This document shows, in pieces, positions 40,929 to 52,936 of a DNA stretch of 64,000 nucleotides. The stretch lies in assembly GCA_016125285.1 (NCBI GenBank), contig WGMA01000037.1, positions 62,001-126,000 on the forward strand, given 5' to 3'. Position 1 is the first letter of the stretch. Every line of letters starts with the position of its first letter. The DNA comes from Phycisphaera sp. Its GTDB lineage: Bacteria > Planctomycetota > Phycisphaerae > Phycisphaerales > Zrk34. The position numbers were made by a program, and so were the translations under genes. Under the pieces are notes generated by a model. That model was not told where the DNA came from. It saw only the letters and a list, made by a program, of their open reading frames with translations, and made no database searches.

Positions 40929-41879
40929 ATGGTCAATCCGCATCCGCAGCGCGTCCGTCGCATGAGTCACGCTCGACATCGAGGCATCTCGCTGCTCGAG
41001 GTCATCGTTGTGCTGTTCGTAATCGCGGTTCTTGTGGGCTTCCTATTGCCGTCGTTGAGCCGATCCGACCACGGATCCAGTCGTACGATCTGCTCGTCGA
41101 ACCTCGCCGGCATCTACAAGGCGATGTACACGTACTCTACGACCAACAAGGACAAGTTTCCGCGAGCGGGCGCGAGTGATCCCGAGGGCGCGGCGATCGG
41201 ATTCGCCGAGGGCAATCGACTGACCGGTGACGGGGCGGTGCTCGAGAACAACGTTACGGCGAGCCTCTGGATGTTGGTTCAGGATGGTTCGTGCGGAACG
41301 AAGAGCTTTGTCTGTGAATCGGACAAGGATTCTGAGCCGGACCCGCTGACGGTCGTCACACGCGGCGCGTTCACAGAGGAGCCCGTGATACTCGAGAAGA
41401 CGTTTGATTTCGGCGGGGCGAAGGCGCTGAGCTATTCCGTGATGAACATGCACGATGGCATCGCGGGCAAACAGTGGAACGCCGACGTCGATCCCGCGTG
41501 GATTCTGATGAGCGACGACAACAACGCGAACGACGCGGGCCCGGTCGACAAGGCGGCGCCTCACACGCGCATCAGGGCCGGCACGTGGGATGTCGAGGAC
41601 CTTCAGTACGGCGAGAACAGCCAGAACCACTCAGAGGGCGAGGGCCAGAACTTCCTGTTCGGCGACAGTCACGTCAGCTTCACCAACGATCCGTTCCAGG
41701 GACCGTCGTACGACAACGCGATGGCGCTCGACGTGAATCCGGACCCGATGACGGAAGCGGCCGCGCCGCCAACACTCTCGAACGCCGCGATCAACGAAGC
41801 GAACCGCAAGACCGATGTCGTGCTGCTGCCGATCACGGGCAACGGCGGCGGGGCGGGCAGCCTCGATCCGTTTGATTGA
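40929..41879 (+). CDS. Prepilin-like protein, EGEGQN-tail family (dispersed copy)
   Basis: The product is 316 aa. Class III signal with an atypical cleavage context (RHRGISLLEVIVVLFVIAVLVGFLLPSL): Gly before Ile rather than Phe. The body (SNLAGIYKAMYTYSTTNKD, DPAWILMSDDNNA, GENSQNHSEGEGQN, FGDSHVSFTNDPFQGPS) is nearly identical in places to the gene at 51986 although 11 kb separates them; the membrane helix differs. AAGGGGG precedes ATG 40929 by 6 nt; ATG 40962 would also preserve the signal. Belongs with planctomycete pseudopilin-like secreted proteins whose job is unknown. The 135 bases upstream show no strong promoter. Confidence 0.85.
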   Translation: MVNPHPQRVRRMSHARHRGISLLEVIVVLFVIAVLVGFLLPSLSRSDHGSSRTICSSNLAGIYKAMYTYSTTNKDKFPRAGASDPEGAAIGFAEGNRLTGDGAVLENNVTASLWMLVQDGSCGTKSFVCESDKDSEPDPLTVVTRGAFTEEPVILEKTFDFGGAKALSYSVMNMHDGIAGKQWNADVDPAWILMSDDNNANDAGPVDKAAPHTRIRAGTWDVEDLQYGENSQNHSEGEGQNFLFGDSHVSFTNDPFQGPSYDNAMALDVNPDPMTEAAAPPTLSNAAINEANRKTDVVLLPITGNGGGAGSLDPFD

Positions 41880-47310: not shown

Positions 47311-48006
47311 TTACATCCGTCCCTTGCGTTCCATCGCGCGGGCGGCCTCGATGCAGTACTTCGCCCAGGGCTTGGCTTCCAGGCGGGCGCGGTTGATCGG
47401 GGCGCCGGTCTCAAGGCACACGCCGTAGGTGCGGTCCTTGATCCGCATCAACGCATCGTTGATTTCGCCAAGGCGCTTGCGCTCCTCCTCGAGCATGCCC
47501 AGCGTCAACTCCTGCTCGTAGTTGTCCGAGCCGATGTCGGCCATGTGCAGCGGCATGTGCGAGAGGTTCGCGGAATCGACGTTCAAGGCTTCCTTGTGCA
47601 TCGAATCCATGTCGCCAAGGATCTCCGCCCGCTTCAGCAGCAGCAGGTGCGCGAAGTAGTTCAGGTCCTTGGCCTTGAGGGGCGTCTTGACCTTGCGACG
47701 CGAAGTGGACTTGGTCTTAGGGGCAGCGTCGGTAGATTTGGCCGCGTTGGTCTTCTTCTTGGTCGTCCGCTTGGCGACCTTCTTGGGCGACGTGGCGCTC
47801 GTCTTGGCAGTCTTCGTGGCGGGCTTCGACTTCTTGGCCGGGCTCTTGGCCGCGGACTTCTTCTTCGTCGTAACCTTCTTGCCAGCAGACTTCTTCGTCG
47901 ACGACTTCTTGGAGGATTTCTTCTTGGAGGACTTCCCCGCAGCCTTGGTGGCTGGCCGCTTCTTGGTCGTCTTCTTGCCGGTTTTGGTTGCCTTCGTCTT
48001 CGCCAC
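47311..48006 (-). CDS. DksA/TraR-like protein with long histone-H1-like basic tail
   Basis: The product is 231 aa. Residues 1-110 are almost only Lys, Ala, Ser and Thr in KK(A/S/T) repeats, like the C-terminal domain of histone H1 or bacterial H1-like proteins. Residues 112-231 are DksA/TraR-like: a coiled-coil (LLLKRAEILGDMDSMHKEA, EERKRLGEINDALMRI) and a zinc-finger-like end YGVCLETGAPI...RLEAKPWAKYC, in which the second Cys of each usual CxxC pair is missing (CLET, CIEA). DksA binds RNA polymerase; the tail should bind DNA non-specifically. It may therefore tether a polymerase modulator to the nucleoid, which is inference. Upstream of lspA in a likely operon. Confidence 0.87.
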   Translation of the reverse strand: MAKTKATKTGKKTTKKRPATKAAGKSSKKKSSKKSSTKKSAGKKVTTKKKSAAKSPAKKSKPATKTAKTSATSPKKVAKRTTKKKTNAAKSTDAAPKTKSTSRRKVKTPLKAKDLNYFAHLLLLKRAEILGDMDSMHKEALNVDSANLSHMPLHMADIGSDNYEQELTLGMLEEERKRLGEINDALMRIKDRTYGVCLETGAPINRARLEAKPWAKYCIEAARAMERKGRM

Positions 48007-50373: not shown

Positions 50374-50402
50374 CTTACATTTGGATACGCGTTGAGTATA
50401 AT
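50374..50402 (+). promoter_or_regulatory. Strong promoter upstream of the first tandem prepilin gene
   Basis: CTTACA (50374-50379), 17-nt spacer, perfect TATAAT (50397-50402). Predicted start 50409-50411, right at the first base-paired segment of the leader. Confidence 0.65.
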
Positions 50403-50408
50403 TCAGCA

Positions 50409-50613
50409 TTGGCGAGGCTGGCGGCGGCAATATCCGTCATCATTCTTATTACCTAATATGCACGCGCTGCCTCGCCCCGTTCGCGCATCATGCGCGAGGA
50501 GTCGACCGCGACCCGTGGAGAACGCTGGGGCTACCGCATCAGAACGCTGTGTGGGCGAGATGGGGAATTCCGTTATCGCCACATCAGCGTTACGGCGGGA
50601 AAGGATCAACGCA
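50409..50613 (+). ncRNA. Structured 5' leader of prepilin gene (possible riboregulator)
   Basis: About 205 nt. GGCGAGGC (50411-50418) pairs perfectly with GCCTCGCC (50469-50476). TCGCGC/GCGCGA (50481-50486, 50492-50497) form a tight hairpin. A long stem runs 50543-50591: AACGCTG/CAGCGTT, TGT/ACA and GGCGA/TCGCC, 15 pairs with two single-base bulges, ending 5 bases before the GGGAAAGGA ribosome site. A second AACGCTG (50521-50527) could replace the first in pairing with CAGCGTT (50585-50591), giving two exclusive folds. Structure is read by eye; function is inference. Confidence 0.5.
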
Positions 50614-51549
50614 ATGTGCATGTATGTCACACAATCACGACGACGGTTTCACAGTGGATTCACCATCCTCGAACTGCTGGTGGTCATGTTCATCATGGCT
50701 CTGCTGCTGTCGCTGCTGTTGCCGTCGATTTCGCGAGCCCGCGAGGCGGCGAACCGCACGATCTGTGGCACCAGCGAGTCAGGCATGTACAAGGCATTGA
50801 TGACTTACGCCTCGACGAACAGGGACAATTTTCCGCGATATGGCACCGATGGCTCTGACCAGACGGTGTTCGGGTTCGCCGGCATCGATCGACCGGAGAC
50901 GAGCCCTGACGCCCAGAGTCTCCGTGACAACCTCACCGCGGCGCTCTGGATGCTGGTGCGTGAGGTTCGTGCCGACACCGGTCAGTTCGTCTGTCCGTCG
51001 GCGCCCGTCGGGGTGCAAGACCCGTTGCGAGAGGTCGTCGGCAATGAATTTGGCAACCAGGGGGTCGCTGTTTCAAAGACCTGGGATTTCGCGTTTGCCC
51101 GAACGTTGAACTATTCCTTCGTCAACATGTATTGCCGCGGCGTCGGGGCCGGCTGGTCTTCGCTCGCGCGAGGCGACTGGGTATTCGCCGCGGACAACAA
51201 CAACGCAACGGAAGATCATCCCTTATCGCCTGGGTCCTTTCACACCAACAAGAAGGAAGACGGCGCCAACCCTGCGGTCATGTCGCAGGAGGAAAACAGC
51301 TATAACCATCGCGAGGGCGAAGGCCAGAACGTCATGTTCGGGGATGGGCACGTGGAATTTGTCACGGATCCGTTCCAAGGGCCTTCCAGCGACAACATCA
51401 TGGCGGTGGATACCGATTCCGATCCGTTCACCAATACGCCGGGGCCGCCAACTTTGATCAACAACGAAATCAATGGAGTCAACGAGAGCAAAGACGTGGT
51501 GCTGGTGCCGATTTCGGGCAACGGGGGCGTCAGTTTATCGGGCCTCTAG
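50614..51549 (+). CDS. Prepilin-like protein, EGEGQN-tail family
   Basis: The product is 311 aa. Class III prepilin signal (RFHSGFTILELLVVMFIMALLLSLLLPSI; cleavage Gly-Phe, Glu5). Family features: REAANRTICGTSESGMYKAL, a Cys pair (TICGT, QFVCPS), an AADNNNA segment, and the tail YNHREGEGQN followed by MFGDGHVEFVTDPFQGPS. This tail resembles the H-x9-DG motif of planctomycete prepilin-like proteins, with two more residues between His and Asp-Gly. ATG 50614 is supported by GGGAAAGGA 8 nt upstream. It is the most diverged of the three copies in this window. Confidence 0.88.
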   Translation: MCMYVTQSRRRFHSGFTILELLVVMFIMALLLSLLLPSISRAREAANRTICGTSESGMYKALMTYASTNRDNFPRYGTDGSDQTVFGFAGIDRPETSPDAQSLRDNLTAALWMLVREVRADTGQFVCPSAPVGVQDPLREVVGNEFGNQGVAVSKTWDFAFARTLNYSFVNMYCRGVGAGWSSLARGDWVFAADNNNATEDHPLSPGSFHTNKKEDGANPAVMSQEENSYNHREGEGQNVMFGDGHVEFVTDPFQGPSSDNIMAVDTDSDPFTNTPGPPTLINNEINGVNESKDVVLVPISGNGGVSLSGL

Positions 51550-51580: not shown

Positions 51581-51610
51581 TTGACAAGGCGTCTACACCG
51601 TGTCTATACT
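51581..51610 (+). promoter_or_regulatory. Strong promoter upstream of the second tandem prepilin gene
   Basis: Consensus TTGACA (51581-51586), 18-nt spacer, TATACT (51605-51610). Predicted transcription start near 51617, about 370 nt before the start codon. Confidence 0.75.
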
Positions 51611-51616
51611 TCCGAC

Positions 51617-51985
51617 GGTCGATGAATGGGACAGCAGCAGGAACTAAATCGCCATTATTCAAAACTTATGATTGCTGCAGTTCAATTCACCGCCACATGT
51701 GTTCGCTCGCCGAGGGGAAAGTAAGAGTTCTAGCGAGCGAACGGGGAGTTTGGCGGACACTTCCATGAGATACCTCACGGAGCGTGTCAAAAAACAAGTT
51801 GGTTGCGCTGCCTGTGTTAGGACAGGGGTGTTCATCGAGCCGGTTGCTTCGCTTCGCTGCCGTTAGTCCAAGCTCGAAATGGTCGGTGGTCGACCGTTTT
51901 TGAGATTCTGGCAGTGAACAAGCCGATCCGACGCACAGCAGCTTGGGTTTCCTCATCCTGTACCTTTCTACTAAGGAGTCTCCGA
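51617..51985 (+). ncRNA. Long structured leader RNA, possibly a separate small RNA
   Basis: No supported gene in this stretch. Stems seen: GCAGCA/TGCTGC (51634-51639, 51673-51678); CCGCCA/TGGCGG (51690-51695, 51751-51756) enclosing a perfect 10-bp stem GTTCGCTCGC/GCGAGCGAAC (51701-51710, 51733-51742); GACAC/GTGTC (51756-51760, 51784-51788) enclosing TCC-TGAG/CTCA-GGA; CCTGT/ACAGG (51811-51815, 51822-51826); TCGAGC/GCTCGA (51835-51840, 51872-51877); then a terminator-like hairpin at 51877-51901. It is either a 370-nt leader with attenuator or a small RNA of about 285 nt. No known RNA family was recognised. Confidence 0.55.
51877..51901 (+). terminator. Terminator or attenuator hairpin in the prepilin leader
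   Basis: GGTCG (51881-51885) pairs with CGACC (51891-51895) around GTGGT; with a U-G pair and three A-U pairs the stem reaches 9 bp, followed by the T-run ending at 51901. It lies 85 bases before the start codon, so it would stop transcription before the gene unless bypassed. Confidence 0.45.
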
Positions 51986-52936
51986 ATGAGACGCAAAGGC
52001 TTTACTCTGATCGAACTACTGGTGGTCGTTGCGATCATCGCTCTGCTGATCGGCATTCTGCTGCCGTCACTGAGCCGTGCTCGCGAAGTGGCCAACCGCA
52101 CGATCTGCTCCTCGAACCTCGCCGGCATCTACAAGGCGATGTACACCTATTCGACGACCAACAAGGACAAGTTCCCCAAGTGGCAGTCGGCGGGTACTGA
52201 CCAAAGCGCCACGGGCTTCTCGGACCTCGAAGACCGCGACGATCCGACCTCGACCATCACCGGTCGTGTGGTGACCGACAACGTTACCGCCGCGCTGTGG
52301 ATCCTCGTCCGTGACGGTTCCACGGGCGCCAAGAGCTACGTCTGCCCGTCGGACAAGGGTTCGGATCCCGATCCGCTGACTCAGTTCACGGCTGGCGACC
52401 CCGCCGCGTTCAACGACACGGCGTCGACGCTTGAGAACACCTACGACTTCGGTGGTCTCGACAACCTCAGCTACTCCGTGATCAACATGTACGACAACAT
52501 CGAGCGCGGTCAGTGGGACGCCGATGTGAACCCCGCCTGGATTCTGATGAGCGATGACAACAACGCCTATCAGTCTGGGCCGGTTGACATGACCGACTTC
52601 CACCTGCGCATCAAGTCCGACACATGGGACGTTGAGGACCTCAAGTACGGCGAGAACAGCCAGAACCACTCCGAGGGTGAAGGCCAGAACTTCCTCTTCG
52701 GCGACAGCCACGTCTCGTTCACCAACGATCCCTTCCAGGGCCCGTCGAACGACAACGCCATGGCTTGGGACTCCGACTCGACGAACACGACCGAGGTCGC
52801 TGCGCCCGGCACGCTCTCGAACCAGCTGATCTACTCGGGTAACCGTAAGCAGGACGTCTTCCTGCTCCCGGTCACTGGTGGCGATTCGGACGAGAACCTC
52901 TCGAATACCGATCCGGCAATCTTCGTCGGTAGCTAA
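51986..52936 (+). CDS. Prepilin-like protein, EGEGQN-tail family (probably abundant)
   Basis: The product is 316 aa. Classical class III signal (MRRKGFTLIELLVVVAIIALLIGILLPSL, cleavage Gly-Phe, Glu5), Cys pair (TICSS, SYVCPS), PAWILMSDDNNA, and the tail GENSQNHSEGEGQN followed by LFGDSHVSFTNDPFQGPS. A strong AAGGAG lies 7 nt before ATG 51986, the promoter at 51581 is near consensus, and codons such as CGT, GGT and GTT are more frequent than in most neighbours, all suggesting high expression. A strong terminator follows. It could be a major surface fibre or matrix protein; the precise role is unknown. Confidence 0.92.
   Translation: MRRKGFTLIELLVVVAIIALLIGILLPSLSRAREVANRTICSSNLAGIYKAMYTYSTTNKDKFPKWQSAGTDQSATGFSDLEDRDDPTSTITGRVVTDNVTAALWILVRDGSTGAKSYVCPSDKGSDPDPLTQFTAGDPAAFNDTASTLENTYDFGGLDNLSYSVINMYDNIERGQWDADVNPAWILMSDDNNAYQSGPVDMTDFHLRIKSDTWDVEDLKYGENSQNHSEGEGQNFLFGDSHVSFTNDPFQGPSNDNAMAWDSDSTNTTEVAAPGTLSNQLIYSGNRKQDVFLLPVTGGDSDENLSNTDPAIFVGS

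Follow-up and report, generated by a model that had tools for sequence, protein, structure and literature searches.

What kind of RNA leads into the prepilin gene that starts at position 50614 of the window, the whole 64,000-nucleotide stretch of Phycisphaera sp. DNA analysed here, and does this RNA act as a switch? The original prediction described a structured, promoter-proximal leader in which the segment CAGCGTT, just ahead of the ribosome-binding site, can pair with either of two AACGCTG copies, and took these mutually exclusive pairings for a switch-like layout. The promoter boxes, the 8-bp stem, the two AACGCTG copies, and CAGCGTT all lie, letter for letter, where it had placed them. 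A structured leader close to the promoter is likewise supported, the closing stem being part of an element that recurs across the class. The parts of the leader are:

50374..50402, + strand: sigma70-type promoter CTTACA-N17-TATAAT (sequence, promoter scan)
50411..50476, + strand: 5' leader element, closing stem P1 and inner extension around an AU-rich loop (folding)
50433..50444, + strand: conserved loop core with AnYGYYATYATT as approximate class consensus (matrix built on nine relatives, without the window leaders)
50521..50527, + strand: first AACGCTG copy, the distal partner, within GGAGAACGCTG (pairing probability)
50543..50591, + strand: ribosome-side hairpin of the second AACGCTG copy and CAGCGTT (folding)
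50600..50605, + strand: ribosome-binding site AAAGGA (sequence)
50614..51549, + strand: prepilin gene, N_methyl, H-X9-DG type (domain matches; ATG at 50614)

The promoter boxes CTTACA (50374-50379) and TATAAT (50397-50402) are separated by a spacer of 17 nt, and a scan over 6 kb places this site and the one at 51581 among three found against 1.2 expected. P1 is formed between GGCGAGGC (50411-50418) and GCCTCGCC (50469-50476) and starts 8 nt past the -10 box, compared with 7-19 nt in relatives. Further downstream, the second AACGCTG copy (50543-50549) and CAGCGTT (50585-50591) form the ribosome-side hairpin, the 3' end of which lies 8 nt ahead of the ribosome-binding site. A sigma70-type promoter followed by P1 within about 20 nt is found both in the window and in family f23 of the same class, and in the window the element is followed by a prepilin gene.

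Pairing at the ribosome side of the first leader

As a whole, the first leader is only mildly stable (z -1.80, with 7/200 shuffles equally good). P1 forms in folds restricted to the first 92 or 140 nt, and reaches a probability of just 0.2-0.3 in the full 232-nt fold. The hairpin 50543-50591 has an energy of -25.7 kcal/mol. Folding of 50409-50640 agrees with the prediction for the proximal stem, which is favoured, but not for the distal stem, which is almost unpopulated. Over all 232 nt, the probability is 0.93-0.996 for the proximal pairing (50543-50549/50585-50591) versus 0.004 for the distal pairing (50521-50527/50585-50591), which comes to 0.016 on 50409-50613 and to at most about 0.2 in truncated folds. 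Therefore, the ribosome-side switch is thermodynamically lopsided.

Moreover, the ribosome-side pairings alone are weak evidence, since shuffled sequences also give such a layout and such a hairpin: a 7-mer with two upstream complements appears in 29/2000 shuffles (tested post hoc), and 19/200 shuffles equal the leader's best hairpin of 60 nt. No homologue conserving the AACGCTG/CAGCGTT pairing was found in our collection, in which the genus of the window is represented by this single genome, and a DNA similarity search of the own genome found no second copy of the leader (next best match at E 0.1). The hairpin is apparently lineage-specific, and a fixed structure is a likelier description of it than a switch between two states. 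With the distal pairing nearly unpopulated and no conserving homologue found, the mutually exclusive pairings are not supported as a working switch, and we rejected the two-copy layout as the main feature of the leader.

The loop core in neighbouring and related prepilin leaders

The first leader had also been described as unlike in sequence to the leader at 51617-51985, which precedes the adjacent paralogue. This distinction does not hold. The features of the adjacent locus are:

51581..51610, + strand: promoter TTGACA-N18-TATACT of the adjacent prepilin gene (promoter scan)
51623..51689, + strand: 5' leader element of the adjacent paralogue, with the architecture of the first; core at 51648-51659
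51986..52936, + strand: adjacent prepilin gene, N_methyl; DUF1559 below threshold (domain matches)

When a matrix derived from the cores of nine relatives, without either window leader, is run over both strands of the 64-kb window, the core at 51648 ranks first and that at 50433 fifth of all positions. The two leaders are not unlike, because the loop motif is common to both, and from these ranks we rejected the view that they are unrelated. The stability of the second leader against shuffles is z -1.76. A second core in the first leader is weak (6.5 at 50566).

For the family of the window, f1, we read the upstream regions of orthologous prepilins from nine genomes, the own genome included. 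By reading, the canonical prepilins (M-K/R-x-x-GFTL-ELLVV) combine a sigma70-type promoter, a closing stem, and a YGYYATYAT-like core in 8/9 genomes; in leader L048 of the ninth, G006, no clear core was seen. The element is also present in G078, which belongs to another family of the same order. Neither L048 nor the G078 core entered the f1 matrix. Nine divergent paralogues display no promoter-proximal core, the match of 12.8 in L014 being located far upstream. A gene-blind search with TTGACA-N16-18-TANNNT-N20-50-YGYYATYAT yields five matches in the nine family genomes, all of them prepilin leaders, with one match in each of five genomes and zero in the other four; the reversed control gives 0 matches in the same nine genomes. 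Searching for loci with the single prepilin protein returned no relatives, the protein alignment returned six loci, apparently in genomes already counted, and a 33-aa query added nothing.

Across the class, 15/45 out-of-family prepilin leaders reach a score of at least 12 with the f1 core matrix versus 1.2 expected from Markov controls, counted on 45 of 46 class loci (L088 was dropped as no start was found). The corresponding count for the upstream regions of the other prepilin paralogues of the own genome is 0/24. As 30/45 class leaders stay below 12, the element is patchy or diverged. Additionally, the flanks of a core pair better with each other than after swapping. For this comparison, 27 leaders with a score of at least 13 were taken from 66, and three were then dropped, their core being judged by eye to lie inside an upstream reading frame; the observed pairing is reached in 2/20000 permutations with the remaining 24 sequences and in 12/20000 with all 27, and another flank-pairing measure gives 2/20000 on all 27. 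For the stem of the window's own family, the flank-swap tests are positive, but they draw on mixed-family sequences and few relatives and have no reliable alignment behind them. MAFFT alignments across families did not align P1 and are excluded from the counts.

A pattern of promoter plus core with a spacing of 25-55 matches 111 times in 397 class genomes versus 22 times in the control, and 15/28 newly fetched pattern loci precede prepilins, in families f15, f23, and f25. The matrix counts in class leaders and the promoter/core pattern, each set against its controls, led us to reject a chance origin of the loop motif. In the f11 prepilin leaders L085, L086, L098, L099, L106, and L130, no f1 core is found near the promoter; some f11 leaders have an ATyAT-type motif close to the ribosome site instead.

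Stem and ribosome-side structure in family f23

The covariance model R1, made from three elements, detects additional copies within a single genome, where they precede two genes that do not encode prepilins. Rebuilt on six elements, the model R2 gives 92 matches in 43/397 class genomes, 36 of these 43 genomes belonging to f23, and 0 matches in the genome of the window. Aligning 75 f23 matches, 74 of them distinct, gives the shortened consensus.AGGcaGGuuu..uuUAUnAUA..uuGucAUCAUA..uUUCAUAyC..aaaCCugCCU, with the three spaced stretches UAUnAUA, GYCAUCAUA, and UUUCAUAyC in the loop. Two-sided changes occur at 12/12 pairs of the f23 P1 and 90.1% of its cells pair, compared to 35-53% in slid versions, while the 130 cells with two-sided changes stand against 46.6 (sd 6.7) in shuffles; all these values are taken from rows aligned to a model that already held the stem, a bias in its favour that the controls limit and do not remove. 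The loop is conserved better than the stem, and RNAalifold gives no further helix within it. P1 starts 7-19 nt past the -10 box in 23/24 loci, the other one being without a strict promoter match.

The downstream genes of 72 loci comprise 41 prepilin genes, 29 genes for secreted proteins, and 2 unclear cases (L176, L220), the secreted class being judged by eye from the N-terminus. Nine secreted products were scanned against Pfam, and each has at least one match at E 0.01, some of them weak (e.g. L198, L201, L224); the domains include beta-helix, RCC1, macroglobulin, FG-GAP, GLUG, and DUF3160. At G430:C1:4797599-4797850, G383:C25:5759-5962, G255:C15:13289-13540, and G265:C104:33793-34030, two 5' elements stand in tandem before one gene.

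At the ribosome side, the 35 f23 prepilin leaders form a pseudoknot, in which helix P2 (CCGGCCGUU.../...AACGGYCGG) crosses helix P3 (GGAGAUUCGC/GCGAAUCUC), and P3 ends shortly ahead of AAGGAG. P2 and P3 together show two-sided changes in 16/25 pairs and 88.1% of cells paired versus 25-48% in slid versions, with pairs defined on the same alignment and partly from RNAalifold; 0/500 shuffles reach the observed values. Most of the covariation is held by P2 (13/15 pairs), P3 being nearly invariant (3/10 pairs). L141 is one more G430 locus, and the prepilin loci L189, L213, L221, L225, L228, L229, and L232 were left out of the P2/P3 set. The relation between this pseudoknot and the ribosome-side pairing of the window is only positional. 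As a lead rather than a result, we note that the distal AACGCTG copy sits in GGAGAACGCTG, a segment placed like the P3 5' strand GGAGAUUCGC in f23. In 9/12 f1 leaders, another motif, which reads GTYnGTYCA or nearly so, is located 97-251 nt past the core, for example at 51862-51870 in the window; it is absent from the first window leader and resembles the 3' strand of f23 P2, CGGUCGGUC.

The leaders of surface proteins have a repeat of the motif at the ribosome side instead, typically GUCAUAAUAUAUUUAUCAUAAA...AAAGGAG. With a regular expression picked after viewing the sequences, 18/24 surface-protein leaders contain the motif within the 52 nt that precede the ribosome site or start, versus 4.4 expected, and its density there is 0.0321 per nt compared to 0.0010 mid-leader; the 24 were used out of 29 secreted-protein leaders, L223 and four others being omitted. 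The last stretch of prepilin leaders displays a weaker enrichment with the f1 matrix (6/58 at score 11 versus 0.8 expected).

How the elements of f1 and f23 are related is answered in part by the model R3, built from the 75 f23 elements. Like R1, it has no significant match on f1 loci, and it misses the window elements and their family relatives; on the first window element it scores 9.2 bits on the stem only, and wrong-strand matches score alike. Since R3 misses the f1 elements, the link between the two families rests on loop motif, place, and gene. The best hit of the f1 matrix falls exactly on the f23 core in 18/33 loci and inside the element in 21/33. Part of the likeness could be convergence. 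The window leader is best read as a divergent relative of the class element that R3 does not detect.

Proposed function, alternatives, and known systems

The sigma70-type promoter ahead of the element, the conservation of the loop, the covariation of the f23 stem, and the association with prepilin and secreted-protein genes are direct outcomes of the computation. Our preferred reading, to which we lend a little less than even confidence, is that the prepilin mRNA begins with an undescribed cis-acting leader element, old in Phycisphaerae, at the loop of which a trans-acting factor docks. The hairpin would begin at or a few nucleotides past the presumed transcription start, its stem would be kept as structure and not as sequence, and the AU-rich loop bearing YGYYATYAT might be where a regulator acting in trans docks, an RNA-binding protein being the likeliest candidate. 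We read the 5' loop as such a recognition site because surface-protein leaders repeat the motif next to the ribosome site. The regulator would make a further contact with a site or fold close to the ribosome site, i.e. the motif repeat in surface-protein leaders and the pseudoknot in f23 prepilin leaders, and would set translation and/or mRNA life of the pilus and surface-protein genes jointly. It is conceivable, and on balance rather doubtful, that this amounts to a Phycisphaerae-wide RNA regulon, in which one leader family (5' motif-loop hairpin plus ribosome-side partner) places the main prepilins and large secreted surface proteins under the common translational control of a single RNA-binding protein or ligand.

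Protein-binding sites in translational leaders serve autogenous or CsrA/KH-type regulation. Like such sites, the present element displays a short motif, unpaired in the loop of a hairpin, and a second copy beside the ribosome site; unlike them, it has another motif. To our knowledge, the control of surface structures in these bacteria is little studied. At E 0.001, the prepilin protein has 122 matches in the own genome (G000), a very large family of prepilin-like proteins, and the shared leader RNA may mark the likely main prepilin. It also links the pili with large secreted repeat proteins as members of one presumed regulon, and provides a small, testable RNA for finding the regulator.

The main rival is a small-molecule switch through the P2/P3 pseudoknot. 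In this model, which we consider unlikely, the leader would be an orphan riboswitch that binds a small molecule, and the pseudoknot adjacent to the ribosome site would either mask it or make it accessible; in f23, the GGAGA of P3 and that of the ribosome site are alternative potential partners of the P3 3' strand UCUC(C). The pseudoknot next to the ribosome site covaries, the SD letters GGAGA occur again in the P3 5' strand, and the 5' element has tandem copies in several leaders, all of which would suit a riboswitch. However, the Rfam 15 covariance models give no match at gathering threshold or at E up to 1, which led us to reject a known riboswitch, and the 5' element consists simply of a stem and a large AU-rich loop that appears to be unpaired, with no further helix. 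The bare-sequence motif beside the SD in surface-protein leaders suits a protein or RNA partner better, and inspection of the first window leader by eye, as opposed to a formal test, showed neither P2 nor P3. Cyclic di-GMP riboswitches occur upstream of pilus and surface-protein genes. The present element resembles them as a leader RNA common to pilin and extracellular-protein genes with several copies per genome, but differs in having no Rfam match and in its 5'-terminal stem with an AU-rich motif loop.

Recognition of the loop by a trans-acting factor also has to be weighed against passive stabilization of the mRNA. Stems at the 5' terminus of the ompA type stabilize mRNA, and the element shares with them the place at the extreme 5' end and the mRNA of an abundant exported protein; what sets it apart from the ompA stabilizer is the class-wide conservation of its loop sequence. 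A stem-loop at the 5' terminus that protects the mRNA against decay from this end, with the loop motif as only a weak preference, agrees with the short distance of P1 from the -10 box in f23 and in the window and with abundant exported proteins as gene products. We nevertheless regard it as distinctly unlikely, as a bare stabilizer needs neither a loop conserved better than the stem nor the motif again beside the ribosome site. More doubtful still is a DNA operator, i.e. a repressor or activator that binds conserved sequence just past the promoter. The promoter-proximal place and the short palindrome TTATnATAA in the f23 loop would fit, but the flanking stem changes in sequence and yet remains paired, a property not required for binding to DNA, the core occurs in a single orientation relative to the promoter, and a further copy is located beside the ribosome site. 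Finally, competition of the two AACGCTG copies for CAGCGTT, toggling ribosome-site access of one gene, is very improbable: both pairings exist in the sequence and the distal one, if forced in 50480-50640, comes within 0.6 kcal/mol, yet forcing it causes no clear change in exposure of the whole ribosome site, and its low probability in the full leader, the shuffles giving the same layout, and the lack of a conserving homologue (see above) speak against it.

The literature searched contains no description of the leader element. The Rhodopirellula-1 candidate motif, a probable cis-regulatory motif of Planctomycetes that also occurs in Proteobacteria, is like it in being planctomycete and probably cis-regulatory (Weinberg 2010, PMC2864571); the table entry available for that motif does not lend itself to comparison. 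In the surroundings of the prepilin genes, a metallophosphoesterase-type gene (GHTHGGQ), seemingly the same one, lies ahead of prepilins at 40971 in the window and at L043, L046, L053, and L068. Further, the product of the ORF 47311-48006 on the minus strand of the window has a long Lys/Ala/Ser-rich, histone-H1-like N-terminal tail, followed by a remainder resembling a DksA/TraR-type domain.
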